NCBI RefSeq assembly: GCF_004016515.1
Contig: NZ_SACT01000010.1
Location: 1 to 64,000 of the forward strand
Reading direction: 5' to 3'
DNA: 64,000 nt
Source of the DNA: Rubrivivax albus
GTDB lineage: Bacteria; Pseudomonadota; Gammaproteobacteria; Burkholderiales; Burkholderiaceae_C
Shown here: positions 27,198 to 40,335 of the stretch, piece after piece
How positions within the stretch are numbered: the stretch's first letter is position 1
How the letters are laid out: each line of letters opens with the position of its first letter
Notes under the pieces: generated by a model
What the model saw: only the letters and a program-made list of their open reading frames with translations
Database searches by the model: none
What the model was told of the DNA's origin: nothing
Translations under genes and position numbers: made by a program

Positions 27198-27288
27198 GGA
27201 GGGATGGATGAGTGGTTTAAGTCGCACGCCTGGAAAGCGTGTGTGGGTTAACAGCCCACCGCGGGTTCGAATCCCGCTCCCTCCGCCA
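27198..27288 (+). tRNA. tRNA-Ser (anticodon GGA)
   Basis: A 91-base tRNA with acceptor GGAGGGA pairing with TCCCTCC, an encoded CCA end at 27286-27288, anticodon loop CTGGAAA with GGA between CACGC and GCGTG, and the long variable arm of class II tRNAs. The T-arm GCGGGTTCGAATCCCGC is perfect. Its 3' end is directly followed by a mobile element with an integrase gene, so this end serves as attL. A TAGACT-like -10 lies about 15 bases upstream. Confidence 0.95.
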
Positions 27289-27335
27289 ACGATAGATTCG
27301 GCAACGTCCGCTGACAGCCGCAGGATTCACCAGAG

Positions 27336-27358
27336 AGCCCCGTTTTCCGGGGCTTTTT
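27336..27358 (+). terminator. Intrinsic terminator between tRNA-Ser and the integrase
   Basis: AGCCCCG (27336-27342), loop TTTTC, CGGGGCT (27348-27354), then TTTT. A strong rho-independent terminator that would end the tRNA-Ser transcript and shield the integrase gene from it. It belongs to the element, and replaces the original tRNA terminator that now lies at 40127. Confidence 0.8.
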
Positions 27359-27461
27359 CGTTCGTGAACCGCCGTTAGCGTGCGTTGACATCCGCCCCGG
27401 ACAGGGGGCACATTGTGGGGAACGGGCCGCCTCTGCGGCCGGAATCGACGGAGATTCCCCC

Positions 27462-28679
27462 ATGCCCCTGACCGATCCAGCCTGCAAGAACGCCACGTGC
27501 CCCCCGGACAAGGCGCGCGTGCGGCTGACCGACGCCGGTGGCCTGTACCTTGAGGTCACGCCGGCCGGCGCGAAGCTGTGGCGCTGGAAGTACAGGCTCG
27601 GCCCGAAGGAAAAGCGCCTCGCCCTGGGCAGCTACCCGGATGTTTCACTATCCCAGGCCAGGAGCGACCGAGACGCCGCACGCCTGCTGCTGAGGTCAGG
27701 CACTGATCCGGTGCAGGCCCGGAAGGACGAGAAGCTCGCGAACCGGCTGAAGCTCGACCATTCCTTCGAGTCCGTCGCCCGCGCCTGGCACGAGACCTGG
27801 AAGCAGGGGAAGTCCACCAGGCACGCCGACTACGTCATCCGCCGGCTCGAACTGGACGTGTTCCCGGCGATCGGCGGCAAGCCCATCGCCGAGGTCACGG
27901 CGCCGACCTTGATCGCCGTGGCCAAGAAGGTGGAGCGCCGCGGCGCCTTGGACATCGCGCACCGGCTGTGGCAGTCGTGCGGCCAGGTCTTCGAGTACGC
28001 GGTCGCACACGGCATGGTGACGCGTAACCCGACCCGCGACATCCGCCCGGGCGCCGCACTGAAGGCGCCTCAGAAGGAATCGTTCGCCCGCCTGGCGGCG
28101 AAGGACATGCCGGAACTGCTGCGGAAGATGGCGGCCTATCAGGGGTCGGTGCACACGCGCTACGCCCTGGACCTGATCGCCCGGACCTTCGTGCGCACTG
28201 GCGAGCTCATCGGCGCGCGCTGGGAGGAGTTCGACCTCGACGCGGCCGAGTGGCGCATCCCGGCCGGACGCACCAAGATGCGGACGCCGCACATCGTGCC
28301 GCTGTCGACCCAGGCAGTCGACGCGCTGCGATGCCTGCACGAGATCAAGGGCATCGGCCCGTTCGTGTTCCCGGGCGAGCGTGACCACGAGTCCCACATG
28401 AGCAACGGCGCGATCCTGGGGGCGCTCAAGCGCATGGGGTACGCCGGCCGCATGACCGGTCACGGCTTCCGCGGCGTGGCCTCGACCATCCTGCACGAGC
28501 ATGGCTTCGACCACGTGCACATTGAGCTTCAGCTGGCCCACCAGGAGCGAAACAAGGTCTCCGCGGCCTACAACTTCGCGACCTACCTGCCAGCCCGACG
28601 CAAGATGATGCAGTGGTACAGCGACCACCTCGACCAACTGCGCCAGGGTGCGAAGGTGATTCCGTTCAAGGCGGCATGA
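27462..28679 (+). CDS. Tyrosine-type site-specific integrase (P4/DUF4102 type)
   Basis: The 405-residue recombinase has the N-terminal arm-binding DUF4102 domain (VRLTDAGGLYLEVTPAGAKL, KEKRLALGSYPDVSLSQAR), the SAM-like core-binding domain (about 100-200) and the catalytic domain. Catalytic residues are Arg246 (FVRTGEL), His334 and Arg337 (HGFR), His360 (LAHQ) and the nucleophile Tyr370. All are intact, so it should be active. Its position immediately behind tRNA-Ser and pointing inward is the normal arrangement for elements that use a tRNA 3' end as attachment site. Confidence 0.95.
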   Translation: MPLTDPACKNATCPPDKARVRLTDAGGLYLEVTPAGAKLWRWKYRLGPKEKRLALGSYPDVSLSQARSDRDAARLLLRSGTDPVQARKDEKLANRLKLDHSFESVARAWHETWKQGKSTRHADYVIRRLELDVFPAIGGKPIAEVTAPTLIAVAKKVERRGALDIAHRLWQSCGQVFEYAVAHGMVTRNPTRDIRPGAALKAPQKESFARLAAKDMPELLRKMAAYQGSVHTRYALDLIARTFVRTGELIGARWEEFDLDAAEWRIPAGRTKMRTPHIVPLSTQAVDALRCLHEIKGIGPFVFPGERDHESHMSNGAILGALKRMGYAGRMTGHGFRGVASTILHEHGFDHVHIELQLAHQERNKVSAAYNFATYLPARRKMMQWYSDHLDQLRQGAKVIPFKAA

Positions 28680-28779
28680 GCCGCACCGCGCCGGCCGGCA
28701 GCCGGCAAAGCGGGGCCCGAGACTGCGCGAACAGACCTCGGACCCCTGACCACCAACCCACCTGATGAGAGGTGAATCA

Positions 28780-29154
28780 ATGGCTACCCCGATTGTTACC
28801 CCCGACGCTGCCGTCGACCTGGCAGACCTCGTGCAGCAACTGCTCGACGCTGGCGAGCGCCGCGCGCGTGAGGGTGTCGCGCAACGCATCCTCCAGACGC
28901 TGAAGGAGGCGCAAGAGCCGGCGCCGCCGCCGGCCCCGGAGCTCCCGCCGCTTGTGGAGATCGCCCACCGCGAGTCCAACGGCCTTTTCGACGTGCTTGC
29001 CCTGCTGCGCTCTGCAGAGGAGCGGATCGACGAGTGCGGCGGCTACCAGTCCTTCCGGACCGACAAGGACTACGCGCATGACACGCTGCGGCTGCTGCAA
29101 CTGGCCCGCGAGCGCGTCCAGCAGGCGCAACACGCCTTCGATCCGTACATCTGA
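28780..29154 (+). CDS. Hypothetical protein of the element (124 aa)
   Basis: I do not recognise this protein. It is 124 residues, with an Ala/Glu-rich N-terminal helix, a Pro-rich spacer (PAPPPAPELPP), and a helical C-terminal half (SNGLFDVLALLRSAEERIDE, DYAHDTLRLLQLARERVQQA). ATG 28780 is preceded by AGAGGTG at a good distance and is preferred over ATG 28765. The gene lies between the integrase and another small gene on the same strand; no motif suggests DNA binding or catalysis. Confidence 0.65.
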   Translation: MATPIVTPDAAVDLADLVQQLLDAGERRAREGVAQRILQTLKEAQEPAPPPAPELPPLVEIAHRESNGLFDVLALLRSAEERIDECGGYQSFRTDKDYAHDTLRLLQLARERVQQAQHAFDPYI

Positions 29155-29165
29155 GGGAGGCCGGC

Positions 29166-29474
29166 ATGAGCACAACGAACCCGGCCCCGTTCGGGGACAA
29201 GATCGAGGGCAACTATCTGGTCGGAGGTGGCAAAGGGCAACCGTCGGCGCTGCAGTTCAATCCTGACGCATCCCTGCAATCCCTCATGGCGGCGGCGCAA
29301 TGGCGGGCCGACAGCCTGAGCAAGTCGCTCAACCAGTGGGCGCGGGCGAACGATGACGGCGTGCTGGCGTGGGAGGTCGCGTCGGCGCTGGAACCGTGGG
29401 CCCAGGAGATCGAGACGATCTTGGAGCAACTGGACAGCCGGATCCGCGCGCTGTCGAGTGTCTCGGATCAGTAG
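29166..29474 (+). CDS. Hypothetical protein of the element (102 aa)
   Basis: A 102-residue protein without recognised family. The first 30 residues look flexible (FGDKIEGNYLVGGGKGQPS). The rest is helical with SLQSLMAAAQWRADSLSKSL and EPWAQEIETILEQLDSRIRA. GAGGGAGG lies just upstream of the ATG. The stop TAG shares its last base with the GTG start of the next gene. The helical pattern resembles small phage-encoded accessory proteins but gives no function. Confidence 0.65.
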   Translation: MSTTNPAPFGDKIEGNYLVGGGKGQPSALQFNPDASLQSLMAAAQWRADSLSKSLNQWARANDDGVLAWEVASALEPWAQEIETILEQLDSRIRALSSVSDQ

Positions 29475-30325
29475 TGCCCACGAAGCACGACACCGGGGCC
29501 AAGCCGGCCCCGGCTTCTTCTGACCAGGCCTCCGGAGATGAGGGCACCAGCGCGGTGCGCGCGTCGAAGGGGGCAAGGAAGCGGCAAGGTCGGCGGGCGC
29601 CTGGCGGGCCAGACGGGGCCTTACCCATCTCGCGCAGATTTGCCGAGTACGCGCTGACGCATGCGCTAAAGGCGATTGCGCACGCAGGAATCCAAGTCGA
29701 GGCGGTGGAGAAGAATGGGCCGGCCCTTGCGCGCTGGTCGACTGCGTATGCGAAGAACGGCGATCGGGGCGTCGACACCCCTTCGCTGAGGCGAGACCTC
29801 GAGGCGGCGTTGTCGCTGCTTGAGGCAGGAGCGAGTTCGCACGCGTCGATCAAGCAGATTGCGCTCGCCTATGTGTCGTTGGCAGCGGCGCTTCGCCGAA
29901 GGTCGGCAACGCCGGCCGAGCTCTTGAGCGCAGCCGGGCAGGCCATCTGGGCATCGGGGTTCGTCTTTGCCGAAGTAGAAGTTGCCTTGCCGAGAGCCGT
30001 TGCGTTCGCGACGTCACAGCTTTCGACAGCGCGCGGCGCCTGGGAATCCGAACGCGAATCCGAGACCGCGCTGTGGAGACTCCGCCAAGCCACGGCAGCC
30101 GCCACGCATGGCGGCAAGGGCGGCGCGTCTAGAGCAGCGAGATTCGAGCCACTACGCGAGTGGGCGAAAGAACAGTTTGACCGACCCGAGATTCAGCGTC
30201 TGAAACGCAATCAGCAGGTCTGGGAGGTCTACAAGCTGCTGCCCCCTGAGCTCAAGGCAATCTCAGGCAATGCGCACCAGTTCCTGGAACGGGAACTGGA
30301 CAAGCGAAGGGCCAAGAAGCCGTAG
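29474..30325 (+). CDS. Hypothetical protein of the element (283 aa)
   Basis: A 283-residue protein of unknown function, probably starting with the GTG at 29474 that overlaps the preceding stop (TAGTG). The N-terminal 50 residues are polar and basic (KGARKRQGRRAPGG). The remainder is mostly helical, with HASIKQIALAYVSLAAALRR, a lysine- and glycine-rich turn THGGKGGASRAAR, and a conserved-looking C-terminus (VWEVYKLLPPELKAISGNAH). Its codon use is less GC-rich at third positions than that of the neighbours, which points to a separate origin. The start is uncertain. Confidence 0.6.
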   Translation: MPTKHDTGAKPAPASSDQASGDEGTSAVRASKGARKRQGRRAPGGPDGALPISRRFAEYALTHALKAIAHAGIQVEAVEKNGPALARWSTAYAKNGDRGVDTPSLRRDLEAALSLLEAGASSHASIKQIALAYVSLAAALRRRSATPAELLSAAGQAIWASGFVFAEVEVALPRAVAFATSQLSTARGAWESERESETALWRLRQATAAATHGGKGGASRAARFEPLREWAKEQFDRPEIQRLKRNQQVWEVYKLLPPELKAISGNAHQFLERELDKRRAKKP

Positions 30326-30362
30326 CCGCGCAACAACTGTCCACCGATTCTCACCTGTAGGG

Positions 30363-30391
30363 TGGCTATCGGGGGTTCTGTTCTGGCTATC
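30363..30391 (+). promoter_or_regulatory. Direct repeats upstream of the AlpA-like gene
   Basis: TGGCTATC occurs at 30363-30370 and 30384-30391, 21 bases apart from start to start, that is two helical turns. This lies in the 122-base gap before the AlpA-like regulator and the replication operon. Such spacing is typical of sites for a dimeric or cooperatively binding regulator; which protein binds is unknown. Confidence 0.5.
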
Positions 30392-30447
30392 ACTCCGAGA
30401 CTTCATTCGCCGACCCACACCGGGCCGCAATGAATCGAAGGAGTCGA

Positions 30448-30726
30448 ATGACAAACGCCACGAACATCCCCGCGCAGGGCTGGATCCGCGAGGGTGATCT
30501 CCTCGCCACCAAGGCGATCCCGTACCGCAGGACGAAGCTGCGCGAAGAGGTAGCGGCCGGCCGGTTCCCGAAGCCCCGCACCTTCGGCCCCCGCATGGTT
30601 GCGTATGACTGCACCCAGATCCATGACTGGATCCGCGAGCAGAGCAAGACCGCGCCGGTCGCCGACATCAAGCCCCCGAAGTCGCGCACGTCCGCACAGG
30701 CTGCCCACGCACCCGCTGCCGCCTGA
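30448..30726 (+). CDS. AlpA-like transcriptional regulator / small DNA-binding protein
   Basis: A 92-residue protein with a winged-helix-like MerR/AlpA pattern: GWIREGDLLATKAIPYRRTK, LREEVAAGRFPKPRTFGPRM and VAYDCTQIHDWIREQ. The G-R-F-P-K-P segment followed by a hydrophobic stretch and a W-I end is the hallmark of AlpA-type regulators. In P4-like and PICI-type satellites these activate the element or its excision. AAGGAG precedes ATG 30448 at 5 bases; ATG 30430 upstream is less well placed. It is first in a tightly packed operon that includes the replication genes. Confidence 0.75.
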   Translation: MTNATNIPAQGWIREGDLLATKAIPYRRTKLREEVAAGRFPKPRTFGPRMVAYDCTQIHDWIREQSKTAPVADIKPPKSRTSAQAAHAPAAA

Positions 30727-30736
30727 GGTCGGCGCG

Positions 30737-30976
30737 ATGGACGCCACCACCACGGGCGCCGGCCCGCATACCGGCATCGCCGACGCCGCGCACTCGCCAG
30801 CCGATCTCGACCCGCACAAGACGTGGGCCACCTGGCAGGCCCGCGCGGCCCTGCGTGGCCACCAGCTGCGCCGCATGGCCGATGGCCGCTGGCTGGCCTT
30901 CAGGCACGGATGGAGCCGTGAGCTTGACGACAGCGAGGTCGAGGCCTGGCTGCAGCGGATCGGAGCGCCGGCATGA
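30737..30976 (+). CDS. Hypothetical protein of the element (79 aa)
   Basis: A 79-residue protein with no clear family. The C-terminal half (WQARAALRGHQLRRMADGRW, then LDDSEVEAWLQRIGAPA) looks like a small alpha/beta fold. Its stop overlaps the next start by 4 bases (ATGA), and it begins 10 bases after the AlpA-like gene, so it is part of the same operon. The frame is open further upstream within the AlpA-like gene, but ATG 30737 avoids a long overlap. Confidence 0.6.
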   Translation: MDATTTGAGPHTGIADAAHSPADLDPHKTWATWQARAALRGHQLRRMADGRWLAFRHGWSRELDDSEVEAWLQRIGAPA

Positions 30977-31509
30977 GCGCGGCGCTCACCACCGTTCCCG
31001 CTGACCTGACCGCGCTGCCAGCGCAGATCAACGAAGCAGTACGTCGCGCTGACACGCATGCCAAAGCGGCAGTACACGCAGCTGTGCACGCTGGACGTTT
31101 GTTGTTGCAGGCCAAGTCGCAGGTCGTGCACGGCGAATGGGAAGCGTGGGTGACCACGCACTGTGACTGTGCCGTCCGCACTGCGCAGGCCTATATGCGG
31201 CTCGCCACGAAGTACGGCGAGCTGCCCCCGTCAGAAGCGCAACGCGTTGCGGAATTGCCGCTGCGACAGGCCATTCAAGCAATCGCCACCCCGGCGTCTG
31301 CGCCGGCCGCGTACCGCCCAACCTCGGAGCGCTGCTACGGCGCGCACCACGAGCGGCGCAAGACGCTGGAGATCGCAAGCAGAGCACTCAACGCCGTGTT
31401 GCGCGACGTAGGTCTCAAGGCCATCCGGCGGGAGCGGCTGATGAGTCTTCAACAGAGGCTGTCCGTCGCATTGGAAGAGGTGCAGGCTATGCTGGAGAAG
31501 GCTGCATGA
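30973..31509 (+). CDS. DUF3102-like protein
   Basis: A 178-residue protein whose first part fits the DUF3102 family of phage- and plasmid-borne proteins. It shows HAKAAVHAAVHAGRLLLQAK, VVHGEWEAWVTTHCDCAVRT and AQAYMRLATKYGEL. The family's function is not established; members often lie near replication or partition genes, as here. The C-terminal 60 residues are helical and basic. It overlaps both neighbours by 4 bases (ATGA at each end). Confidence 0.75.
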   Translation: MSAALTTVPADLTALPAQINEAVRRADTHAKAAVHAAVHAGRLLLQAKSQVVHGEWEAWVTTHCDCAVRTAQAYMRLATKYGELPPSEAQRVAELPLRQAIQAIATPASAPAAYRPTSERCYGAHHERRKTLEIASRALNAVLRDVGLKAIRRERLMSLQQRLSVALEEVQAMLEKAA

Positions 31510-31721
31510 CCACCCGCGAGCGCCCGCAACAGCGGGAGGTCGAGACGCCAGAGCAGGTGCTGGCGCTGGCCAAGGCATGGCACGCGCGGCAGGTGGAGAT
31601 CTTGCGCGCGTCGCTGGGGCCGTCGTGGCCGACGCACCGCGAGTGGGTGCTCGACTACCTGCGACAGGAGATCCGTCAGCGACTGATCGCACGGGGCTGG
31701 AGGCCGCGGGATGAGCGCTGA
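31506..31721 (+). CDS. Hypothetical protein of the element (71 aa)
   Basis: A 71-residue basic helical protein (EQVLALAKAWHARQVEILRA, PTHREWVLDYLRQEIRQRLI). It overlaps the DUF3102-like gene by 4 bases and the helicase gene by 11, so translation is probably coupled. I do not recognise a family; an accessory role to the helicase is only a guess from position. Confidence 0.6.
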   Translation: MTTRERPQQREVETPEQVLALAKAWHARQVEILRASLGPSWPTHREWVLDYLRQEIRQRLIARGWRPRDER

Positions 31722-33009
31722 AGAAGACCTCGACCTGGCGGGCCTGGGGGTCGAAGCGCCTGACGTGGTGCTCTCCAAGGCACAGCGGCCCCGCACCGCC
31801 GGCAGTAGCCGCGCGGGCCAAGCCGGGCACGACGCGAAGCGCCCCACCAGTGCCGCGCCGACGCCGGTGGCATCCAGCCTAGGGCCGCTGACCGGGCTTC
31901 CACTGAGTGACTCTGCAGCGCCAGGATGGGTTGCCAAGGTTCGCTTCTGGCAAGCGCCGGACGACCTCGACGCCAAGCCCAAGCCGGTGGCCATGGCGGT
32001 GGACACGCTGATCCAGCGCGGCAAGGTCGGCGCACTGGTGGCAGCCGGCGGGGTCGGAAAGACCACGCTGATGACGACGCTGGCCTGCTGCCACGCTACC
32101 GGCCGGCAGTTCCTGGGCATGCGGGTTGAGCCGGGATCGTTCGTGCTGCTGTCAGCCGACGACAGCCAGGAAGACCTCGACGCCGCACTGGGCCACGTCG
32201 TGCGCGCCATGAAGCTGACGCCGCAGGAGGTCGACAAGGTGCGCCAGCACGTGCGCGTCGTGAGCCTGCAGGGCGAGCCCGGCACGCGCACCTTCGCCAC
32301 GAACGTGGGCGGGTCCGTCATGTCCACCGGCATGGTCGAGTTCGTCACCAAGGCACTGGCCGGGATCGACGACCTCGTCGGCATCGCCTTCGACACCCTG
32401 CGGCAGTTCGCCGGGGGCTCGAGCAACGACGAGGAGATCGTCAAGGCGACGATCTCAGGTGCGACCGAGATCGCAGCCCTGACCGGCGCCTATGTCCTGC
32501 TGTCGCACCACACCGGCAAGAACAACTACCGCGACGGCGTGACCGACATGTACGTCGGCAGCGGGTCGGCCGCCATCGCCGACAACTGCCGGTTCGTGCT
32601 GCTGCTGCAGACCGCCACGTGGGCCGAGATCGAGTCCAAGGTCGCCCGGACTGGCCAGGAACACGGCGACCCCCTCGTGCTGACCTCGACGCGCGGCTCG
32701 CTGCTGATGCGTGCGCCGCCGCCGATCTTCCTGCACCGCGACGGGTTCCTGCTGGGCCGCATTGCCGGCGCATCGCGCACCGCTGACCAGATCGCCGACG
32801 AAGAGGACCGCGCCATCCTGGCCGCGGTGCGGGCCGGTGCTCAGACCAAGACCGCCGTCGCTTCGGCAGTGCGCCGGAACAAGACCAAGGTCTTGCGCCA
32901 GGTCGACAACCTAGTGTTCCGGGGCCTGCTGTCGCTCGGTTCCGAAAGCGGTTCCGGAAAACTGACCGTGTCGGGGCCTGGTGCTGCCTTTCTGGACAGC
33001 CAGCCATGA
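31711..33009 (+). CDS. RepA-like hexameric replicative helicase / AAA ATPase
   Basis: The 432-residue protein has an Ala/Ser/Pro-rich N-terminus of about 75 residues, then a RecA-type ATPase domain of the AAA_25/RepA group. Walker A is AAGGVGKTTLM with Lys117. FVLLSADDSQEDL, a Walker B-like GIAFDTLRQFAGG, and VLLSHHTGKNNYRDGVTDMY with the sensor-like SHHTGK follow. The C-terminal 60 residues look like a winged-helix domain (RAGAQTKTAVASAVRRNKTK). Such proteins drive replication of plasmids such as RSF1010 and of phage satellites. With the SSB-like gene nearby it implies that the element replicates after excision. Confidence 0.85.
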   Translation: MSAEEDLDLAGLGVEAPDVVLSKAQRPRTAGSSRAGQAGHDAKRPTSAAPTPVASSLGPLTGLPLSDSAAPGWVAKVRFWQAPDDLDAKPKPVAMAVDTLIQRGKVGALVAAGGVGKTTLMTTLACCHATGRQFLGMRVEPGSFVLLSADDSQEDLDAALGHVVRAMKLTPQEVDKVRQHVRVVSLQGEPGTRTFATNVGGSVMSTGMVEFVTKALAGIDDLVGIAFDTLRQFAGGSSNDEEIVKATISGATEIAALTGAYVLLSHHTGKNNYRDGVTDMYVGSGSAAIADNCRFVLLLQTATWAEIESKVARTGQEHGDPLVLTSTRGSLLMRAPPPIFLHRDGFLLGRIAGASRTADQIADEEDRAILAAVRAGAQTKTAVASAVRRNKTKVLRQVDNLVFRGLLSLGSESGSGKLTVSGPGAAFLDSQP

Positions 33010-33506
33010 CCCCCGAAAAGCGGTTCCAGAACACCGGTTCCCACCTAAGGGCTGGAACCGTGGAACCACCCCTAACCCTGACTGACGTTTCACTACGTCA
33101 GGGCGGGGTGGTCAAGGGGTGCCCAGTTCCGGGAGTTCCGGCTTGGTTCCGGAGTTCTGGAACCAGCAAGGGGTGTCCGTCATTGCCTGGTGGCGAAGGT
33201 CCGTGCGGTCGTCGCATTCCCACCAAGGCACGTTCGGCGCGCTTTCCTCCATTTCTTCCACTGCTGCGGCGCTTGGTCACTTTCGGGCGTTTCGGGCCAC
33301 TTTCTGGACATTTCGAACACCAGCAGGCCGCACGGATAGCCCTGGTCAATGAGCGCGCGATGCGCGACCGCCTGGCCGTTGACCTGGCTGCGCGAGAGGC
33401 TACCGCCGGTGCGCCGAACTGGCGGGGGCGTGCGCTTCTGTGGTCAATCGAGGCCCGCATCGCAGAACTGCAGGGCGAGATCGAGGCGCAGGGGGCCAGG
33501 TCATGA
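33006..33506 (+). CDS. Hypothetical protein of the element (166 aa), possible origin-overlapping reading frame
   Basis: A 166-residue frame starting with ATGA overlap on the helicase stop. Its first half (KGCPVPGVPAWFRSSGTSKG) reads unlike a folded protein and coincides with a repeat- and hairpin-rich DNA stretch. Only the C-terminal 60 residues (ALVNERAMRDRLAVDLAARE, GRALLWSIEARIAELQGEIE) look like a normal helical protein. A shorter protein starting within the frame, for example near 33349, is possible. The stop again overlaps the next start. Confidence 0.45.
   Translation: MTPEKRFQNTGSHLRAGTVEPPLTLTDVSLRQGGVVKGCPVPGVPAWFRSSGTSKGCPSLPGGEGPCGRRIPTKARSARFPPFLPLLRRLVTFGRFGPLSGHFEHQQAARIALVNERAMRDRLAVDLAAREATAGAPNWRGRALLWSIEARIAELQGEIEAQGARS
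33066..33111. repeat. Long two-step inverted repeat downstream of the helicase
   Basis: CCACCCC (33066-33072), taa, CCCTGAC (33076-33082), a 14-base loop, GTCAGGG (33097-33103), c, GGGGTGG (33105-33111). Fourteen base pairs form with one small asymmetric internal loop. It lies about 60 bases after the helicase gene amid several GGTTCC/GGAACC motifs. A replication origin or a regulatory RNA hairpin are both possible. Confidence 0.55.
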
Positions 33507-33763
33507 CCCGAGGATCCCTGGCCCTGGCCGCCGTCGTCGTGCTGCTGGTCGAGGCCGCCTTCGGCGATCTCGACGAGGCAACTGCAGGCCCCGCCGCTTC
33601 CTCTGCATCGCAGTCATCGCCGGAAAGCCGCGCCGATGCTGGCGATCGTGGAAGCCAGGCGCCATCGGTGCCCCCAACGGTTCCCCACCTTCCCGACCTT
33701 CACAGGTCGTCGCGCACCGAATGTGTGCAATGCCGATCGTTCGGCCAAGGAGTGACGCAATGA
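33503..33763 (+). CDS. Small putative exported or membrane protein of the element (86 aa)
   Basis: An 86-residue frame that starts within an ATGA overlap and ends within the next start codon (ATGA at 33760). The N-terminus MTRGSLALAAVVVLLVEAAF looks like a short membrane helix or signal peptide, followed by a Ser/Pro/Asp-rich tail with a C-x-x-C near the end. No family is recognised. The coupling to both neighbours is the main support. Confidence 0.4.
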   Translation: MTRGSLALAAVVVLLVEAAFGDLDEATAGPAASSASQSSPESRADAGDRGSQAPSVPPTVPHLPDLHRSSRTECVQCRSFGQGVTQ

Positions 33764-34146
33764 TGCACGCGCTGGTTACTGGCGTCTTGGTCGCAGATCC
33801 CGAGCAGCGCAGCGCACGGGGCGATAGCGACTGCGCCGTGGTGAAGATCCTGCCCGACACCGGCCCGGGAGACGGCCCTGTGGCCCTCGTCACCGCCTAC
33901 GGATCCACCGCGCGCACGCTGCTGGCGCTCACGGCCGGCGACCCCGTCGCCGTCGCCGGGCGAGCCAGGCCGGCACTGTGGGCGCGACCGGATGGGGCGA
34001 CGGTCGCGGGCCTGGACGTGCTGGCCACCTCGGTCATGACCCCCTTCGAGGTCAGGCGCAAGCGGCGGGCTGTGAGAGACGCAATCGAAGGCGCCGAGGG
34101 CGTTGCGAATTTTGCGCAATTGCCGCCTGACACGGGTCGCGAATGA
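33760..34146 (+). CDS. SSB-like single-stranded DNA-binding protein (OB fold)
   Basis: A 128-residue protein with the pattern of short OB-fold SSB/PriB-like proteins. It shows MHALVTGVLVADPEQRSARG, CAVVKILPDTG, a central VALVTAYGSTARTLLALTAG and DPVAVAGRARPALWARPDG. A basic helix FEVRRKRRAVRD follows near the C-terminus. It lacks the acidic tail of host SSB. AAGGAG precedes ATG 33760. Together with the RepA-like helicase it forms a plausible replication module. Confidence 0.7.
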   Translation: MMHALVTGVLVADPEQRSARGDSDCAVVKILPDTGPGDGPVALVTAYGSTARTLLALTAGDPVAVAGRARPALWARPDGATVAGLDVLATSVMTPFEVRRKRRAVRDAIEGAEGVANFAQLPPDTGRE

Positions 34147-34301
34147 ACTGCCCGGCGACACCCGCTTGTCCCTGGCCACTGGTTCGACGGAACCGCGCTC
34201 CGCCATCGCACAAGCCCCGCTGCAGGCCTCTCCCCAGCATGCGCACTGTTCCCCACCCCTTCCGCCGCATGGCCGGCGCTGACCACGAGAACGCACGATG
34301 A
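34143..34301 (+). CDS. Small ORF bridging the SSB-like and coiled-coil genes (52 aa)
   Basis: A 52-codon frame that begins in an ATGA overlap with the SSB-like stop and ends in an ATGA overlap with the start of the next gene. The product would start MNCPATPACPWPLVRRNRAP and is rich in Pro, Arg and Cys, without a recognisable fold. It may serve mainly to carry ribosomes across the gap (translational coupling) rather than to make a functional protein. Confidence 0.4.
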   Translation: MNCPATPACPWPLVRRNRAPPSHKPRCRPLPSMRTVPHPFRRMAGADHENAR

Positions 34302-35104
34302 ACGACACACTGACCGCCGACCTTCAAGCCAGGCTCGCGGCGACCGAGAACCAGATCGCTGAACTCGACTTCGACGCAGCGCGGGCGCGCATCAAGCGTG
34401 CCGACGAACAGGTCCAGACGCTTCGCGGAGACGCTGGGGCGCTGCACCTGATCGAGTCCCAGGAACTGCAGCACGCACGCGGCGAGGCCAAGCAGGCGCG
34501 CATCGCACTGTCCAGCCTCGAAGGCCGCCAGACGAAGCTGCAGGCCGAGGCCGCGAACCTGCGGCGCCTGCTGACTGCCCAGCAGGCCGTCGACAAGGCG
34601 GTGCCGCCCATCGCCGTCGCCGAGGGCCGTGTCGAGGCCGCTGCCGAGGCACTGCGCCAGGCGGAAGCGACTGTCGCGCGGCTGGACGCCCTGATCGACG
34701 AGGAGACCACCGCGGCTCAGGCCGCGGTCCTGACCGATGGCGCCGCGATGCTGGAAGCGGTCAAGGCCGGTGGCAACGCTCTGGCCGCGGTCCCGACCCG
34801 GGCGGACAAAGTGCAGCCTCTGAAGATCGCGCGCGCCACTGCCGACGAGGAGCGCGCGCAGGCAGAGCGGGCACTGAAGATCGAGCGGGATGCCTTGTCG
34901 AAGCTCCGGCTGCAGCTGCGGACGGCCGAGGCAACCGTCGCCGAGCTCGACTTCCTGGCCGCACGCGCGGCTTTCGTCCAGGCGGCGGGCCGCTACAAGG
35001 CCGCCCGTGTGCGCGCAAAGCAAGGCGGCTGGCGCGCACCGGATCTCGACGGCGAAGCCAATGCCGCGATGGTCGCCGACTTCGCCGCGAACGGTGATCA
35101 GTGA
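34298..35104 (+). CDS. Coiled-coil protein of the element (268 aa)
   Basis: A 268-residue protein that is almost wholly predicted helix with heptad-like repeats. Examples are LQARLAATENQIAELDFDAA, ARIALSSLEGRQTKLQAEAA, EAAAEALRQAEATVARLDAL and LRLQLRTAEATVAELDF. The phrase AELDF recurs near both ends, with ARAR/AARAA context, hinting at an internal duplication. No catalytic motif is visible. Scaffold-like or structural roles occur for such phage proteins, but no family is recognised. Confidence 0.65.
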   Translation: MNDTLTADLQARLAATENQIAELDFDAARARIKRADEQVQTLRGDAGALHLIESQELQHARGEAKQARIALSSLEGRQTKLQAEAANLRRLLTAQQAVDKAVPPIAVAEGRVEAAAEALRQAEATVARLDALIDEETTAAQAAVLTDGAAMLEAVKAGGNALAAVPTRADKVQPLKIARATADEERAQAERALKIERDALSKLRLQLRTAEATVAELDFLAARAAFVQAAGRYKAARVRAKQGGWRAPDLDGEANAAMVADFAANGDQ

Positions 35105-35158
35105 TCGGGCGGTCGCTCCTCAAGACACGCAAGGTCGGCGGCAGGTAGCACGCGGCAC

Positions 35159-35608
35159 ATGAGGCGCGATCCGATCGAGGCCACGAGTGCGCCGGCGCAG
35201 GTCGGGCCGGACGACGACGAGTTCGACGATGACCCCTCTCTGCAATCGGTGCAGCGCATCGTCGCGGCAAGCGAGGCACCACCGCTGCGCCCGCCCTGCG
35301 CCGCGTCGGTCTTCGCACTGGCCGACGTGCCGCTGCAGCGACGCGTATTCGGCACCACCGACCGACCGGCCGGACAGGATGCCGAGACCAAGGCCGCGAC
35401 CGAGCGATGCCTCCGCACCGGTGGCGTGATCCGGGCGCACGGGCTGCGCTACCCGGCCGACAGGTGGACCGCCGAGCGCGAAGAGCAGGAACGCGCCAGG
35501 CGCGCACGACAACGCCCACCGCGACCGCCGCGCCGGGCCAAGACCAAGGGACGAAAGCTCCGTGACCTGATCCACGCAGGCGCGGGCGCCGGTGAGTGGG
35601 ACGAATGA
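35159..35608 (+). CDS. Hypothetical protein of the element (149 aa)
   Basis: A 149-residue protein with an acidic N-terminus (PDDDEFDDDPSLQSVQRIVA), a central region RTGGVIRAHGLRYPADRWTA and a very basic tail (RARQRPPRPPRRAKTKGRKL). The mix of acidic head and basic tail suggests nucleic-acid or partner binding, but no family is recognised. It sits 54 bases after the coiled-coil gene. That gap holds only a 15-codon GTG-initiated frame. Confidence 0.55.
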   Translation: MRRDPIEATSAPAQVGPDDDEFDDDPSLQSVQRIVAASEAPPLRPPCAASVFALADVPLQRRVFGTTDRPAGQDAETKAATERCLRTGGVIRAHGLRYPADRWTAEREEQERARRARQRPPRPPRRAKTKGRKLRDLIHAGAGAGEWDE

Positions 35609-35627
35609 GAAAGGCTGGACAGGCAAG

Positions 35628-37475
35628 ATGACATTGAAGCGCGTACTTACGGGCCGCATCACTCCTCCCGGGACTCAGATCCCGCCGGTTCCGGTGCTGT
35701 GGTGGCCGCTGGACACGGCCGGCGCCGTGACTGCAGGCACCACCTGTGGCGCGGGCCTCACCGACCTCGGCCAGGATGGCAACAGCATTGCCACCGATGC
35801 GGTGCTGCAGGTCAACGCGGCCGGCGCGACATGGAACCCCCGCGGTGGACTCACCCACACGGCAGGCAGCGCAGCCTACTGGGACATCGTCCCGACTTCG
35901 GACGACCTCACGTTCGCTCAAGGCATGCTCGACCTCTCGAACTTCGCCGAAGGCGAGTGCCTGGTCATGGGGTGCGAGATCGTGACCCCTGCCGGCTGGA
36001 CAACGCCGGGCGACCCGAACGACCACGAGTTCAGCAGCGTCTGCCTGTGCATCGGCGACCTGAGCGCCGGCAATGGTGGCTACAGCTTCGAGATCAGCGG
36101 GGTCGAGCGGCCTCAGATCACTTTCTGGGGCCAGGGCGCATCGGCTCAAGCGGCCGTGTTGTCGACCACCGGGAGCAACTTCCTTCGGGCGGGCAATCGC
36201 AATGTTGTCGTGTTCGAGCTCATCCGCGCAGCGACGCCGAGCCACTTCATCGTGCGGGCCCATGTCATCAGCGACGACGAGGGCTACAGCGCCACGGGCT
36301 ACACGGCAGAGCGCGATTTCTCCGATGCCGTCAACAGCGGCACGGCCGCGCCGGGCTGCGGCACAGCTGGCCTGCGAATCGCCAGGCGCCGCAGCGCAAC
36401 GAGCGGGCAGACGAATCGCGGCGAGACGCTTCGCAATGTCTGGATCGCCCGCTTCCCATCGCAGATGTTCAGCTTCCCGAAGCGCTGCGCGCTGGAGATG
36501 TACGCCTACCCGAACCGGCTGCCGCCTGCGCTGCGCCGGTTCGAGAACGACCAGACGATCTACCAGGGGCCGGACGGAAACGCCGACAAGACCTTCGGGG
36601 AGATCAGCCTGGCCGATATGTTCGTGTACGTCGACGGCGCTACGCCGTTCGCCAGCACGCCAGAACTGACGATGGAGGTGGAGCAGCCTGTCACGCCGAG
36701 CATCAGCAAGCTCAGTGCGATCAGCGCCCACCCAAACTACAGCAGCGACAGCACCTTCGAGGGCCTGCTGCGGCAGAACCCGGCACTCGGAGGCCCAAAG
36801 TTCGGGCGCTACAAGACGGGCACGTGGGCGAACACGCTGATCTTCAGCGCGCACAAGGAGGACATCAGCAACCGCGGGCGCTGCGAGATCACCTGGCAAG
36901 GGCCGCCCGTCACGATGCCGCTGGGGGTGACCTTCTGGATGGCCGAGCGGGTCTATCTGGACTTCCCGCCGCCCGATGTCGGGCAGCTGGTCATCATGCA
37001 GTTGTTCCCGGGGTACTTCGCCGGGTCGGGCCTGTTCCCTATGTGGACGCTCGAACTGGACACCACGAACAAGCGCCTCTATTGCAAGTTCAGCCAGTCA
37101 GACCAGCCCGACACGGTGCAGGCCGACATCGTCCGCAATGACGTCTACATGCCGGGCTACAGCGACGACCTGTTTCAAGGCTGGCACGACATCGTGGTTC
37201 AACACCGGGTGCACTGGGACGCTACCGAGGGGCCCTTCACGCGCATCTGGCTGGATGGCGTGCAGATCCTCGAGCATGCCCAGGCCTATGGCTACCCGGG
37301 CCCGGCCGGCCTCACCGGCAAGAGCACCGACCCCTTCCTGCGCTGTGGCATCTATCCCCCTAGCCCGTACATCACGCCGAATACGACCCGCGATGTTCGG
37401 GTGGCGAGATTCTTCGGCTGCAAGAACGTGGGCAACTACAACGAGCCCTTGATCCGGGCCGCCCTGACCGCATGA
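35628..37475 (+). CDS. Large protein with LamG-like and polysaccharide-lyase-like domains, candidate tailspike/adsorption protein
   Basis: A 615-residue protein and the largest in the element. The first 200 residues look like a jelly-roll carbohydrate-binding region (VPVLWWPLDTAGAVTAG). Residues about 415-595 follow the pattern of heparin-lyase-I/alginate-lyase-type folds (PF14099-like). Segments are GVTFWMAERVYLDF, MQLFPGYF, FPMWTLELDT, GWHDIVVQHRVHW, FTRIWLDGVQILEHAQAYGY and FLRCGIYP. No signal peptide is visible, fitting a virion rather than secreted protein. A GTG at 35592 is an alternative start; ATG 35628 follows GGACAGG. The depolymerase role is inference from fold pattern and context. 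Confidence 0.6.
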   Translation: MTLKRVLTGRITPPGTQIPPVPVLWWPLDTAGAVTAGTTCGAGLTDLGQDGNSIATDAVLQVNAAGATWNPRGGLTHTAGSAAYWDIVPTSDDLTFAQGMLDLSNFAEGECLVMGCEIVTPAGWTTPGDPNDHEFSSVCLCIGDLSAGNGGYSFEISGVERPQITFWGQGASAQAAVLSTTGSNFLRAGNRNVVVFELIRAATPSHFIVRAHVISDDEGYSATGYTAERDFSDAVNSGTAAPGCGTAGLRIARRRSATSGQTNRGETLRNVWIARFPSQMFSFPKRCALEMYAYPNRLPPALRRFENDQTIYQGPDGNADKTFGEISLADMFVYVDGATPFASTPELTMEVEQPVTPSISKLSAISAHPNYSSDSTFEGLLRQNPALGGPKFGRYKTGTWANTLIFSAHKEDISNRGRCEITWQGPPVTMPLGVTFWMAERVYLDFPPPDVGQLVIMQLFPGYFAGSGLFPMWTLELDTTNKRLYCKFSQSDQPDTVQADIVRNDVYMPGYSDDLFQGWHDIVVQHRVHWDATEGPFTRIWLDGVQILEHAQAYGYPGPAGLTGKSTDPFLRCGIYPPSPYITPNTTRDVRVARFFGCKNVGNYNEPLIRAALTA

Positions 37476-37530
37476 GGCTGGCCGGATGCCCGGCCGATTG
37501 CCCCGCGGTTGACACATAGCGAGTTGACAG

Positions 37531-38019
37531 ATGGCCGCCACGAACAAGCACAGCGCAGCGACAGTGCAGCATCTCGAGCGCCAGGCCAAAGCGCTGGAGT
37601 TGCGCCGCGCCGGCCTCGGTTACCGGGAGATCGGGGCGCACCTCGGCGTGAGCCACACCTCCGCGCACAAGATGGTGAGCCAGGCGGTCGAGGCAACCTG
37701 GGCACGGATCAGCGACGCGACCGACGAGCTCAAGGCCCTCGAACTGTCGCGCCTCGACGCCATGCTGGGCGCAGTGTGGCCAGCGGCCCACCGAGGGAAT
37801 CTCGGCGCAGTCGACCGTGCACTGAAGATCGCCGAACGCCGGGCCCGCCTGCTGGGCCTGGATGCGCCGGCGCGCCGCGAGCTCACCGGGAAAGGCGGGC
37901 TGCCGTTGGTGCCCGCCGAGCGCCCGACGATCGATGCATCCAAGCTGTCGGATGGCGCACTGGCCGAGATCCTGGCCGCGCAGGTCGTCATGTACGAGCC
38001 GAATCGGCTGAATGCCTAG
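37531..38019 (+). CDS. Terminase small subunit-like protein
   Basis: A 162-residue protein with an N-terminal helix-turn-helix (EYRE-like segment ALELRRAGLGYREIGAHLGV followed by SHTSAHKMVSQAVEAT). A helical region with ELSRLDAMLGAVWPAAHRGN and AVDRALKIAERRARLLGLDA follows. This combination is typical of small terminase subunits that recognise a packaging site. No large terminase is present. In phage satellites a lone TerS redirects a helper phage's packaging machinery to satellite DNA. A plain HTH regulator is the alternative. Confidence 0.72.
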   Translation: MAATNKHSAATVQHLERQAKALELRRAGLGYREIGAHLGVSHTSAHKMVSQAVEATWARISDATDELKALELSRLDAMLGAVWPAAHRGNLGAVDRALKIAERRARLLGLDAPARRELTGKGGLPLVPAERPTIDASKLSDGALAEILAAQVVMYEPNRLNA

Positions 38020-38031
38020 CATGCCCACACC

Positions 38032-38682
38032 ATGAGCACACACCTCAACCGCCAGGCCGGGACACCCGGCGCGCCGACCATGATCCGCAACATCGCCCCG
38101 GGCTCGGCCGCTGGCCTGGGCCGCGCGATCGACAGTCGGCACCGGTCCGGCGCCGGCGCCTACGAACCGGTCAGCGTGGCGCGTGATCCATCGCTCAACG
38201 ACGCGGCGGCGCAGCGCCGCATCCAGCACAACGCCGAAGCGCGGGCCCTGGCGCTCGACCTGGTCGCGGCCGGGTTCAACGCGCCCGGCGTCAGCGTCGA
38301 CGACCTGCAGCGGCTCGGCCCGGACCGGCTGCGGGAGCTGCAGGCCACCATGGCCAACGATGCCGCGTTCGCCGCCTATTCCATGAACGACATGCTCGCC
38401 GAGGGGGGCGGCGTGACCGGTGGCGACATGCTGCGCCTGGTCACTGCAGTTCGCGCCGCGTTGCAAGGCGCGAGCACCGAAGCACTGGCCGGCCTGGGCG
38501 AGGCACTGCTGAAGAGCATCCTGAAGCAGGTTGCGCCGGCGCAGTCGACGATGGCAGGCAATGGCGCCGATCCGTATGCCGACTACCCGGACAACCCCGG
38601 CTTAGAGCACCTGATGAGCGCCGGCAGATCGAGCGCCGCGGGCGACGAGTTCGCCGGCTATTCGCTGAACGAGCACCTGTAG
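38032..38682 (+). CDS. Hypothetical protein of the element (216 aa)
   Basis: A 216-residue protein without a recognised family. It has a flexible Gly/Ala/Arg-rich N-terminus and helical segments (AQRRIQHNAEARALALDLVA, LRLVTAVRAALQGASTEALA). Two short repeats are of note: FAAYSMNDML in the middle and FAGYSLNEHL at the very end. The repeated phrase suggests a duplicated interaction motif. It follows the TerS-like gene by 12 bases and is the last plus-strand gene of the element. Confidence 0.6.
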   Translation: MSTHLNRQAGTPGAPTMIRNIAPGSAAGLGRAIDSRHRSGAGAYEPVSVARDPSLNDAAAQRRIQHNAEARALALDLVAAGFNAPGVSVDDLQRLGPDRLRELQATMANDAAFAAYSMNDMLAEGGGVTGGDMLRLVTAVRAALQGASTEALAGLGEALLKSILKQVAPAQSTMAGNGADPYADYPDNPGLEHLMSAGRSSAAGDEFAGYSLNEHL

Positions 38683-38726
38683 GCCAGGTCCTGGGCCGGT
38701 GTCGAGCACCGCCCCAGAGACGAAGC

Positions 38727-39398
38727 TCAGTTCTGAATCGCCGTCAGAACACCATCCTCGAAGTAGAGGTAGTTTCCGCTGCCATAGACCCACTGCTCTC
38801 GCACACCATGCGCCGTGGTGGTGCGGTTTACGCTCTCAGGGCGGCCCCAGGAACTCTCGATCACCTGCTGCTGTGTCATGCCTATCGTGACGCCACGCTT
38901 TTTGGCCTCAGCAAGGCGCTGCCGCTCGGCCTGCTTCTCGGCTCGCTCACGAAGAGCGACTAAGCGCCGCTTGTCCGACTGGAGTGCCTTGGCGGCTTCG
39001 GGATAGTGGCGCTCGAGCTTGTCGATGGCATCTAACCGCTCCGTCGTGGACTTGTTCGTGGAGCGCGCATCGGAAGTCCAAGCAGCGATCTCGTCCTGCT
39101 TCACCATGGCTAACAGTTCAGCATCCTTCAAATGGTCCGCGCAGCGACTGATCGATCGAGCGGCCTCCCAGCGCTTACCAGCGGCCACCAACTCAGCGTG
39201 CTTAGCCAAGATCCCCGCTCGATCCGAGGTACAAGCCTCGAGCGCAGCGGCTGCGCGGCGCTTAGCTTCTGCTGCGGCCTGGCGCTGCTGATCGGCAACC
39301 CGCTCGCGATCGACCTTCGGCTCGTTGTCGCCGAACATGGCCCCGAAGATCACGAGCAATAGCGGAACCCCAAAGACAATGAGCAGCAGCTTCTTCAT
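38727..39398 (-). CDS. Membrane-anchored coiled-coil protein with a BamE/SmpA-like C-terminal domain
   Basis: A 223-residue protein with an N-terminal membrane helix (KKLLLIVFGVPLLLVIFGAM). A long Ala/Arg/Lys/Glu-rich coiled coil follows (about 35-160). The small C-terminal domain has VTIGMTQQQVIESSWGRPES and GVREQWVYGSGNYLYFEDGV, which matches the pattern of BamE/SmpA-like or DUF2845-like folds (GMT-x-x-x-V-x-x-x-W-G-x-P). It would sit in the inner membrane facing the periplasm. Gene direction is opposite to the replication genes. The start overlaps the stop of the next gene upstream (ATGA). Its function in the element is unknown. Confidence 0.7.
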   Translation of the reverse strand: MKKLLLIVFGVPLLLVIFGAMFGDNEPKVDRERVADQQRQAAAEAKRRAAAALEACTSDRAGILAKHAELVAAGKRWEAARSISRCADHLKDAELLAMVKQDEIAAWTSDARSTNKSTTERLDAIDKLERHYPEAAKALQSDKRRLVALRERAEKQAERQRLAEAKKRGVTIGMTQQQVIESSWGRPESVNRTTTAHGVREQWVYGSGNYLYFEDGVLTAIQN

Positions 39399-39733
39399 GG
39401 CTGTATGTCCTCCCTGCGCGTTGATTCTGCCCTCGCAGCTGGCGCACCAGCAAATCCACCGCCGGGTGCGGCTGGGTGCGCGTCGCGGCCTGTGAGCACG
39501 CGTGGTTCGGTCGGCGCCATCGCGGTTTCAAAGGCCGAAGCCACCAGCTGACCAAACCGCGATCGCGGCGACACCAAGCTTCCGTGCTCGGCGGCCGGCT
39601 CGGCGAAGTCCAGCACCTGCCCACTACACCCCTGTAGTGCCAGTGCGAGCACATCGGCAGCAGGTGCGTGCGGATGGCTCGCGCTTAGGCCTACCGCCGT
39701 CGAGACGACGGCTCTGGCGTCGGCGTTGGGCAT
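39395..39733 (-). CDS. Hypothetical protein of the element right end (112 aa)
   Basis: A 112-residue frame starting at ATG 39733, with an Ala/Val/Ser-rich N-terminal half (ARAVVSTAVGLSASHPHAPA) and a central SRFGQLVASAFETAMAP. It overlaps the downstream membrane-protein gene by 4 bases and the upstream Cys-rich gene by 43 bases in another frame. No family is recognised; the coupling supports that it is translated. Confidence 0.5.
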   Translation of the reverse strand: MPNADARAVVSTAVGLSASHPHAPAADVLALALQGCSGQVLDFAEPAAEHGSLVSPRSRFGQLVASAFETAMAPTEPRVLTGRDAHPAAPGGGFAGAPAARAESTRREDIQP

Positions 39734-39939
39734 GGCTCGACTGTAGCCACCGGCAGCGGCCCGAGTTCGTCGTCCGAGCCGACCTCCCGCTGCCAGAAGG
39801 CACAGCCGTTCGCCGGCATGGCGCGCACGTGCAGCGTGCCGCCGTGCAGGCACCTAGCCGCCGTGGCCTGGTAGACGAGGCCGCCGAACGATGTGCAGTG
39901 CCAGCAGGGTCGCGGGTTCCCCATGGGTCGGAAGTGCAT
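39691..39939 (-). CDS. Cys-rich small protein of the element right end (82 aa)
   Basis: An 82-residue protein with GNPRPCWHCTSFGGLVYQAT, ARCLHGGTLHVRAMPANGCA and FWQREVGSDDELG. The three groups of Cys and the CWHC phrase suggest a small zinc-binding fold. I recall similar proteins as conserved hypotheticals in betaproteobacterial phages and mobile elements, without known function. The Met at 39924 is an alternative start. The tail after about residue 62 is Pro/Ser/Arg-rich, and this is where the next gene begins in another frame. Confidence 0.6.
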   Translation of the reverse strand: MHFRPMGNPRPCWHCTSFGGLVYQATAARCLHGGTLHVRAMPANGCAFWQREVGSDDELGPLPVATVEPCPTPTPEPSSRRR

Positions 39940-40099
39940 GGCGCCATGGTGCGGCCCGCTTGTCTCACCCGGTGAGCCTCCCGGACAATGCAGTTCACAG
40001 GCGGCGCCGCGGGTTCTGGGGAACGCAGTGGGGAACCGGGCAGGCCAGATCGACCGGAAACCTAGTATCCATGCACATTTCCCAAGAAGATGCGGCCGT
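39940..40099. other. Non-coding right end of the element with candidate integrase arm sites
   Basis: No convincing gene is visible here. The motif TGGGGAAC occurs twice, at 40017-40024 and 40029-40036, 12 bases apart, and a third copy lies near the left end at 27416-27423. Paired short repeats of this kind next to an element end are typical of integrase arm-type binding sites. Confidence 0.45.
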
Positions 40100-40112
40100 C
40101 GCTCCCCCGCCA
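40100..40112 (+). other. Candidate attR, degenerate copy of the tRNA-Ser 3' end
   Basis: CGCTCCC-CCGCCA at 40100-40112 equals the last 14 bases of tRNA-Ser(GGA) with one T missing. It is followed at once by GATTC and then a strong plus-strand terminator, as expected if this was the original downstream flank of the tRNA. A 13-base imperfect match in GC-rich DNA could be chance. Confidence 0.45.
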
Positions 40113-40126
40113 GATTCATTGCAAGC

Positions 40127-40156
40127 AAGCGGCCTTCGGGCCGCTTCTGCTTTTCT
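40127..40156 (+). terminator. Intrinsic terminator, probably the original tRNA-Ser terminator
   Basis: AAGCGGCC (40127-40134), tetraloop TTCG, GGCCGCTT (40139-40146), then CTGCTTTTCT. There is no plus-strand host gene just upstream of it now. It makes sense as the native terminator of tRNA-Ser, displaced by the inserted element. Confidence 0.65.
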
Positions 40157-40206
40157 GCCGGCTCATCGTGCCGGCACATCGGAGACCCACGACTGAACGC
40201 CGAGCC

Positions 40207-40258: not shown

Positions 40259-40335
40259 TGGTAGGCGCGATTGGACTCGAACCAACGACCCCCACCATGT
40301 CAAGGTGGTGCTCTAACCAGCTGAGCTACGCGCCT
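40259..40335 (-). tRNA. tRNA-Val (anticodon GAC)
   Basis: A 77-base tRNA: 5' AGGCGCG pairs with 3' CGCGCCT, the CCA end is encoded, the D-loop contains AGCTCAGCTGGTTAGAGC, the anticodon arm is CACC-TTGACAT-GGTG with GAC, and the T-arm holds GGTTCGAGTCC. A TATAGT -10 box lies at 40352-40347 on the minus strand, just upstream, but read-through from relA, whose stop is 48 bases away, is also possible. Confidence 0.95.

Follow-up and report, generated by a model that had tools for sequence, protein, structure and literature searches.

The window, that is, the whole 64,000-nt stretch of the Rubrivivax albus contig that was analysed, likely carries an integrated phage satellite of the PICI type at tRNA-Ser(GGA), which would replicate by itself and steer helper packaging with a small terminase subunit (TerS) of its own. 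The initial annotation had proposed a satellite with its own replication and hijacking of a helper's packaging, and this is supported, since the protein encoded at 37531–38019 matches more than regulators and no full capsid and portal module was found in the relatives that share the replication genes. The position proposed for it, 30448–38019, holds for the inner part; the integrase (27462–28679), the small genes on the left and the stretch up to about 40198 on the right also belong to the element.

Limits and ends of the element

The element spans from about 27289 to at most 40198, about 12.9 kb, between tRNA-Ser(GGA) and tRNA-Val(GAC), as delimited by ARAGORN and by comparison of tRNA-Val loci. 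Among other tRNA-Val loci of the same genus, 40198 is the earliest start of likeness, with the exception of three matches of 31–72 nt further left. The features are as follows, with genes called by a caller retrained on the listed genes.

27198–27288, +, tRNA-Ser(GGA), by ARAGORN; its 3′ end is the presumed attL
27462–28679, +, tyrosine integrase, 405 aa; PF13356, PF22022 and PF00589 above cutoff, phrog_1 E 4.3e-56
28780–29154, +, small protein, 124 aa; 39–40% identity to a G079 tRNA-Ser element gene over 66–68 aa
29166–29474, +, small protein, 102 aa; 35% over 86 aa with a G091 element gene
29477–30325, +, open frame with uncertain start codon, not picked by the gene caller; no Pfam match of note
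30448–30726, +, AlpA-like regulator; PF05930 21.2 bits, only just above the cutoff of 21
30737–30976, +, 79-aa protein adjoining AlpA; 56% with a 73-aa G079 C7 gene, 46% with a 57-aa G026 gene
30973–31509, +, DUF3102 protein; PF11300 43.4 bits (cutoff 24.4), 48% over 164 aa with the G079 tRNA-Ser element
31506–31721, +, 71-aa protein directly 5′ of the helicase; 67% over 57 aa with the G079 C7 element
31711–33009, +, RepA-type helicase; AAA_25 104 bits, 48% over 428 aa with the G079 C7 element
33760–34146, +, SSB-like protein, 128 aa; own Pfam SSB match E 0.0082, below cutoff; 46% with G091, 38% with G051
34298–35104, +, helical or coiled-coil-looking protein, 268 aa; no family of note
35159–35608, +, 149-aa protein; no Pfam or PHROG match
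35592–37475, +, 627-aa protein, C-terminal part polysaccharide-lyase-like; PF14099 E 1.1e-5, below curated cutoff
37531–38019, +, putative TerS; phrog_645 E 2.8e-29, homologue synteny with the large terminase (TerL), predicted fold consistent
38080–38682, +, 200-aa protein where phages often have TerL; no Pfam or PHROG match
38727–39398, −, 223-aa protein, membrane anchor by eye; phrog_11546 E 4.5e-17, a PHROG without known function
39398–39939, −, two small genes, about 39398–39739 and 39694–39939, starts uncertain; 63% and 66% identity to the C11 element of the same genome
40198–40335, −, native flank and tRNA-Val(GAC), the right limit of the element, from comparison with other tRNA-Val loci in the genus

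The main reading frames are open, and 33010–33759 holds no well-supported gene. No iteron array was seen, the sigma-70 promoter scan found 0 promoters versus 0.9 expected by chance, and PADLOC reported no defence system, with marginal matches only (best E 0.0027).

Other elements with copies of the tRNA end (att) occupy the tRNA-Ser site in G051, G043 and G079, all genomes of the same genus; in G004, G012 and G040 the site shows neither such a copy nor a seed match. The last 15 nt of the window's tRNA-Ser recur at the far end of the element in G043 (15/15) and G051 (14/15), and the far end of the G079 element matches its own tRNA end at 14/15. In the window, 12-mer and low-stringency BLAST searches with both flanks found no copy of the tRNA-Ser or tRNA-Val 3′ end above chance, either at the element's other end or elsewhere; for a 16-nt core, the best match is 12, versus best matches of 12 to 14 in 20 shuffles. 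Because no attR is detectable, this copy may be stranded after losing its right att site.

We give about an even chance to the element being a satellite by origin that is now immobile, a deletion having removed attR and brought the right end up against the tRNA-Val region. Such a deletion is compatible with the satellite reading and would concern this copy only. It is suggested by the tRNA-end copy that closes the three comparable elements but not this one, and by G051, where about 13 kb of host-looking genes separate the element from tRNA-Val, whereas in the window the native tRNA-Val flank starts at 40198. On the other hand, the deletion would have to be recent because the main frames are open, the att site could be short or altered instead, and a search of the host's own genome did not find the missing host DNA, as the G051 DNA beyond its attR gave short weak matches only.

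Replication genes, missing phage modules and related elements

Next to the AlpA-like regulator, which was correctly recognised at the outset, lies a replication module. Residues 88–309 of the helicase, its ATPase core, match RSF1010 RepA (1g8y/1nlf/1olo, E 4.4e-8) in a PDB sequence search, which together with the AAA_25 match bears out a RepA-type helicase, and the linkage of this helicase to a DUF3102 protein is likewise confirmed. The SSB-like assignment stands by way of the G091 homologue (46% identical), which matches SSB above cutoff (E 4.5e-8), and not by the protein's own match. RepA relatives were found neither in the phage collection nor in IMG/VR; in genome contigs, the single-sequence scan found none and the two-row profile scan one, a G079 contig. 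Judging by titles, none of the three papers found to mention DUF3102 deals with satellites.

In line with the initial annotation, no large terminase, portal, capsid, tail or lysis gene was recognised. None turned up when the scanned ORFs were matched to Pfam and PHROG, and tblastn with 12 TerL, 7 portal and 5 capsid seeds found none of these three in 27289–40198. The absence holds for recognisable genes only, because the 627-, 268-, 200- and 149-aa proteins are unassigned. Neither IMG/VR nor the phage and plasmid collections nor 299 further genomes of the order yielded a relative of the 627-aa protein, PDB gave no match to it, and its AF2 model made without an alignment was useless (mean pLDDT 30.9). 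In the C11 and G106 elements, the TerS-position gene is preceded by genes that resemble that of the 268-aa protein, by eye only. The second distal small gene was found in 24 of 198 genomes, its own counted.

No resident helper was found in the host genome with the families searched, which speaks against the satellite reading: nothing matched the phrog_12 portal or the phrog_9 TerL. phrog_2 matched the TerL of the second (C11) element and, partially, a 1083-aa frame (G000:C44, E 1.1e-8); it also matched in 11 of 14 control genomes.

Besides the integrase, nine genes in the window have homologues in related elements, namely those for the 124-, 102-, 79- and 71-aa proteins, DUF3102, RepA, the SSB-like protein and the two distal small ones. 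One tRNA-Ser-site element of the genus keeps the order AlpA, DUF3102, RepA and has a major capsid protein (MCP), with no TerS seen. A capsid protein, with neither TerL nor portal found, is encoded by the two G079 elements that share replication genes; the same holds for the G043 and G032 elements with their MCP. The C11 element, in the host's own genome, has a TerS-position gene and TerL, with no capsid found, and G052 and G106 have a TerS-type gene by similarity (28–29%), with no TerL found. At tRNA-Val, the G026 element has a head module of MCP, protease, portal, HNH-like, TerS and TerL; by the seeds used it shares with the window only the 79-aa gene (46% over 56 residues). Element regions L144–L152, L155 and L156 were compared with seeds or flanks only.

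These comparisons are best read as a set of related elements, the window's among them, in which common genes for integration and replication are joined to packaging or capsid genes that differ. More tentatively, a radiation of satellites not yet described may exist in Rubrivivax and related bacteria, a view we consider less likely than not. Its members would combine shared integration, AlpA-type and replication genes with single exchangeable head pieces: TerS alone in the window and probably in G052 and G106, a TerS-position gene with TerL in C11, a capsid gene with no portal or TerL found in the two G079 elements, G043 and G032, and a head module in G026. If so, the capsid-only satellites would need mixed heads with the helper's portal and terminase, and we know of no described family that hijacks in this way. 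A literature search on Rubrivivax, satellite and prophage gave nothing on the subject, judging by titles.

It is unlikely that the element is instead a prophage stripped of its structural genes by deletion, with early genes and terS kept by accident. A TerS of ordinary phage descent, the capsid protein in some related elements, the head module in G026 and the lack of a detectable attR would all fit such a history, but no trace of TerL, portal or capsid came up by tblastn, the main reading frames are open, the two G079 sharers of the replication genes are also without TerL and portal by the same searches, and G052 and G106 also have a TerS-type gene with no TerL found.

The small terminase

By homology, the 37531–38019 protein is a small terminase. 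The name of its PHROG, phrog_645, is ‘Rnase E’, which we distrust because of the synteny of the members. In the phage collection, tblastn with the protein matched 63 phage records, several of them annotated ‘terminase small subunit’. All 63 are phages of actinobacteria, and therefore no fitting proteobacterial helper is known. The products of gene 1 in Jace and Bolt007 are 37% and 35% identical to the window protein, and in both phages TerL and portal follow directly; in MenE and Tonitrus, TerL lies four or more genes beyond the homologue.

IMG/VR yielded no relative by single sequence and 13 by profile, and TerL lies downstream of the homologue in 12 of these 13 contigs (11 by tblastn, L179 by Pfam), two of the 13 being taken as the known isolates Jace and Appa. 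The portal seed of L187, a 538-aa frame, is a portal by position only because it has no Pfam match. With homologues that are mostly encoded before TerL, the protein is, as initially proposed, a lone TerS.

The AF2 model of the protein (mean pLDDT 81) predicts a helix-turn-helix (HTH) and a helical hairpin, which may correspond to the HTH and the helical hairpin oligomerisation domain of small terminases. Its best BFVD match is named ‘Terminase small subunit’ (E 2.8e-7), with a TM-score of only 0.34, and Foldseek found nothing in PDB at E 0.001 or better. The single sequence has no PDB sequence match, and nearly all PDB matches of the profile are HTH-bearing proteins, mainly regulators and sigma factors, aligned over the first part. 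The Pfam matches of the N-terminus, to HTH and sigma region 4 families, all fall short of the cutoff. Overall, the fold searches were middling.

These HTH and sigma matches, the missing Foldseek match and the RSF1010 plasmid type of RepA would suit an integrative element, plasmid-like or otherwise, with a TerS-like gene that encodes a DNA-binding regulator and has no part in packaging, which we regard as highly improbable. The alignment with the phage proteins runs past the HTH to about residue 109, and those proteins mostly precede TerL.

Proposed course and known satellite families

The genes and their order are directly observed, and we infer induction, replication, pac recognition and transfer of the satellite from the gene families. 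First, AlpA would be induced by a helper phage, and the integrase with AlpA would excise the element. Second, the RepA helicase, the SSB-like protein and the linked small genes (DUF3102, 79 aa and 71 aa) would replicate it. Third, its own TerS would recognise a pac-like site within the element and recruit the helper TerL to it, so that satellite DNA would be packaged into helper heads.

If the satellite reading is true, satellites with a TerS also occur in Burkholderiales, here joined to a RepA replication module of plasmid type, and one tRNA site is used by elements that seem to take different phage parts. It would also point to proteobacterial helper phages with a terminase type that matches only actinobacterial phages in the searched collection, and the elements would form a natural series in which to learn what single head gene suffices to redirect a helper.

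Gram-negative PICIs have a size of 12–15 kb, and some carry a terS homologue, according to the passages drawn on here (Fillol-Salom 2018, PMC6092414). The window element resembles them in its integrase, AlpA regulator, replication module, lack of any structural or lysis gene found and size within their range (PMC6092414, same passages). Its RSF1010-RepA-type helicase with DUF3102 and an SSB-like gene differs from the Pri-Rep described there (PMC6092414), and it further differs in its Burkholderiales host and in that no attR was found. PICIs have unique att sites that prophages do not use; the site here, tRNA-Ser(GGA), also holds similar elements in G043, G051 and G079.

SaPIs differ from the window element in regulator, replication genes and host phylum, and, unlike in SaPIs, no capsid-size gene was recognised in it. 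It is like the SaPIs with their own TerS in that TerS would direct the helper TerL to the pac site of the island, as excerpts of PMC6092414 and PMC10690885 describe. For a Pseudomonas satellite, the excerpt of PMC4936722 used here reports that no terminase gene was identified.

The layout of cf-PICIs (MCP, protease, portal, HNH-like, TerS, TerL), as outlined in parts of PMC10690885 and PMC11389934, is found in the G026 tRNA-Val element. The window element, in contrast, has no head module, with no capsid, portal or TerL by tblastn and no protease in Pfam or PHROG. PICMIs are like it in integrase, alpA, a replication gene and the absence of capsid genes, and unlike it in their DUF3987/DUF5906 primase, fis site and six-gene prototype, as far as the relevant part of PMC10803314 goes. 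The window element has a RepA helicase, a tRNA-Ser site, its own TerS and more genes, with no Pfam match to DUF3987 or DUF5906.

P4 shares an AlpA-type regulator and an integrative life style with the window element, and its hallmarks are the alpha primase and the capsid-size or head genes. No P4-type alpha primase, Sid, Psu or Delta is among the window's Pfam and PHROG matches. P4 Vis is called an AlpA homologue in the consulted section of PMC6092414.

Limits and gene order of the element

The initial annotation described an element with AlpA, a RepA-like helicase, SSB, a lone TerS (small terminase subunit) and no structural genes. This observation was confirmed, but the limits assigned were too narrow, as the element begins at the 3′ end of tRNA-Ser. 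We take its right end to lie at or before 40198, making it about 12.9 kb long, because likeness to tRNA-Val loci elsewhere in the genus starts no earlier than that point, if three matches of 31-72 nt are left aside. The host genome comprises 74 contigs (5.31 Mb).

Features of the element and its flanks (most genes between the two tRNA genes lie on the plus strand)
27198-27288: tRNA-Ser(GGA), left flank, 3′ end being the natural attL
Left part, in order: integrase, two small genes, unknown frame, AlpA, 79-aa gene, DUF3102, 71-aa gene, RepA-type helicase
33010-33759, between the RepA-type helicase and the SSB-like gene: no well-supported gene
Right part, in order: SSB-like gene, coiled-coil-looking gene, 149-aa gene, 627-aa gene, TerS, 200-aa gene, then minus-strand genes
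40259-40335: tRNA-Val(GAC), right flank

Just inside the right end, a 13-base unit occurs in two copies (40156-40181). A pair of small minus-strand genes lies at 39398-39939; relatives of the second occur in 24 of 198 genomes (counting the host's own), some of them with no seed-matching integrase near by.

The phage-satellite reading is supported by sequence evidence, including the tests of what could speak against it, namely a TerS matching regulators only and relatives with full capsid and portal modules. Homologues of the TerS have TerL, the large subunit, in 12 of 13 contigs. The element resembles PICIs and shows all three of the PICI features that gave a clear result; it may be a PICI-like satellite.

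Integration at tRNA-Ser and relatives in other genomes

Seven tRNA-Ser sites were compared, the window's included, although they are not a random sample; searches with element genes brought up those of genomes G043 and G079, and flank searches that of G051. In these three genomes an element at the same tRNA-Ser gene is closed by a repeat of the tRNA's 3′-terminal 15 nt, matching at 15/15 (G043), 14/15 (G051) and 14/15 (G079, against its own tRNA end). Within the stretch read after tRNA-Ser, G004, G012 and G040 gave neither such a copy nor a seed match. We take the attR of the window element to be lost or unrecognised, because no tRNA-end copy was found up to base 64000.

The window RepA matches RSF1010 RepA helicase structures (E 4.4e-8). 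Among 298 genomes, 38 (own genome included) have matches at E 0.001, and only G079 has a close one over the protein's length (49%). Two related elements are found in G079, a genome assigned to the host's genus.

Elements of G079
C7:628001-648000 (read in reverse): integrase, HTH_17-like gene, 73-aa and 65-aa homologues, RepA, then HK97-type capsid protein
At tRNA-Ser: AlpA, DUF3102, 74-aa gene, RepA-like helicase, capsid protein

The HTH_17-like gene, in AlpA position, scores 26.9 bits against a cutoff of 27, and the AlpA at tRNA-Ser is confirmed as such (PF05930, 59 bits). The link between DUF3102 and helicase, pointed out initially, is kept in the tRNA-Ser element (48% and 27% identity to the window proteins, respectively), where the carried phage gene differs. 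A 136-aa protein is common to both elements (84% identical), its C7 copy matching the lambda J tail profile (E 2.2e-6).

TerL, portal and capsid genes were sought in 13 elements with 24 seed proteins (E 0.01). Of the seven portal seeds, one is assigned from its position alone. Two hits were set aside, one of 42 aa in G091 (E 0.007) and one on the opposite strand in G026 (E 0.005). The most surprising part is the capsid-only relatives. An HK97-type major capsid protein is present in four elements that have no seed-matching TerL or portal: the G079 element on C7 (PF05065 E 1.3e-12; phrog_617 E 5.6e-29), the G079 element at tRNA-Ser (PF05065 E 3.2e-15), that of G043 at tRNA-Ser (PF05065 E 3.1e-36) and that of G032 (PF05065 E 6.9e-8). 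The seeds found neither TerL nor portal in the G043 (genome 76% complete) and G032 elements, and matched nothing in G012, G035 and G051.

Within the genus, tRNA-Val serves as a second site of integration (G026, also G035). The 10-kb G026 element (L141:6795-17332, on G026:C7) is bounded by tRNA-Val on one side and a repeat of that tRNA's 3′ region on the other. PHROG matches identify MCP, protease, portal, TerS and TerL in it, and an HNH-like gene was recognised by eye, a cf-PICI-like layout. The window TerS has a relative in a TerS-like gene of G106 (29% over 148 aa), and G052 carries a DUF5681 protein (E 6.1e-12); the searches made found no TerL in either element. A satellite-like element at tRNA-Ser(CGA) in G091 carries a Bbp16-family phage protein (E 2.5e-11; L157:13493-13954) adjoining a coiled-coil-looking gene, near the homologue of the window's SSB-like gene.

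A second element in the host genome

Another satellite-like element lies on contig C11 of the host genome.

C11 element (L053, L054)
766287 to ~780700: integrase, PrimPol-AAA helicase, coiled-coil-looking gene, 161-aa gene in TerS position, TerL

Its TerL matches phrog_979 (E 2.5e-34). The 161-aa gene matches DUF5681 at E 0.019 only and is 28% similar to the G052 protein. Neither portal nor capsid was found by tblastn with the seeds. The two distal minus-strand genes of the window element recur in it (63-66% identity). In the search for a resident helper, the host genome gave no match to phrog_12 portal or phrog_9 TerL; phrog_2 matched the C11 TerL and, partially, one further frame. A resident helper with another type of portal and TerL may be present.

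Proposed course from AlpA to packaging

PICI induction is described as being under AlpA control (PMC6092414), AlpA is reported to control excision (PMC10803314), and the TerS of SaPIs is described as steering the helper's packaging towards the island (PMC6092414). For the window element, genes, gene order, site and homologies were observed. By likeness to the known families, the same chain from AlpA to packaging would operate here, the excised circle being replicated by RepA and the SSB-like protein and picked for packaging by TerS.

The 627-aa protein (35592-37475) had no relatives in the collections searched. Its C-terminal part is polysaccharide-lyase-like (PF14099, below cutoff), and this domain might conceivably act on or at particles.
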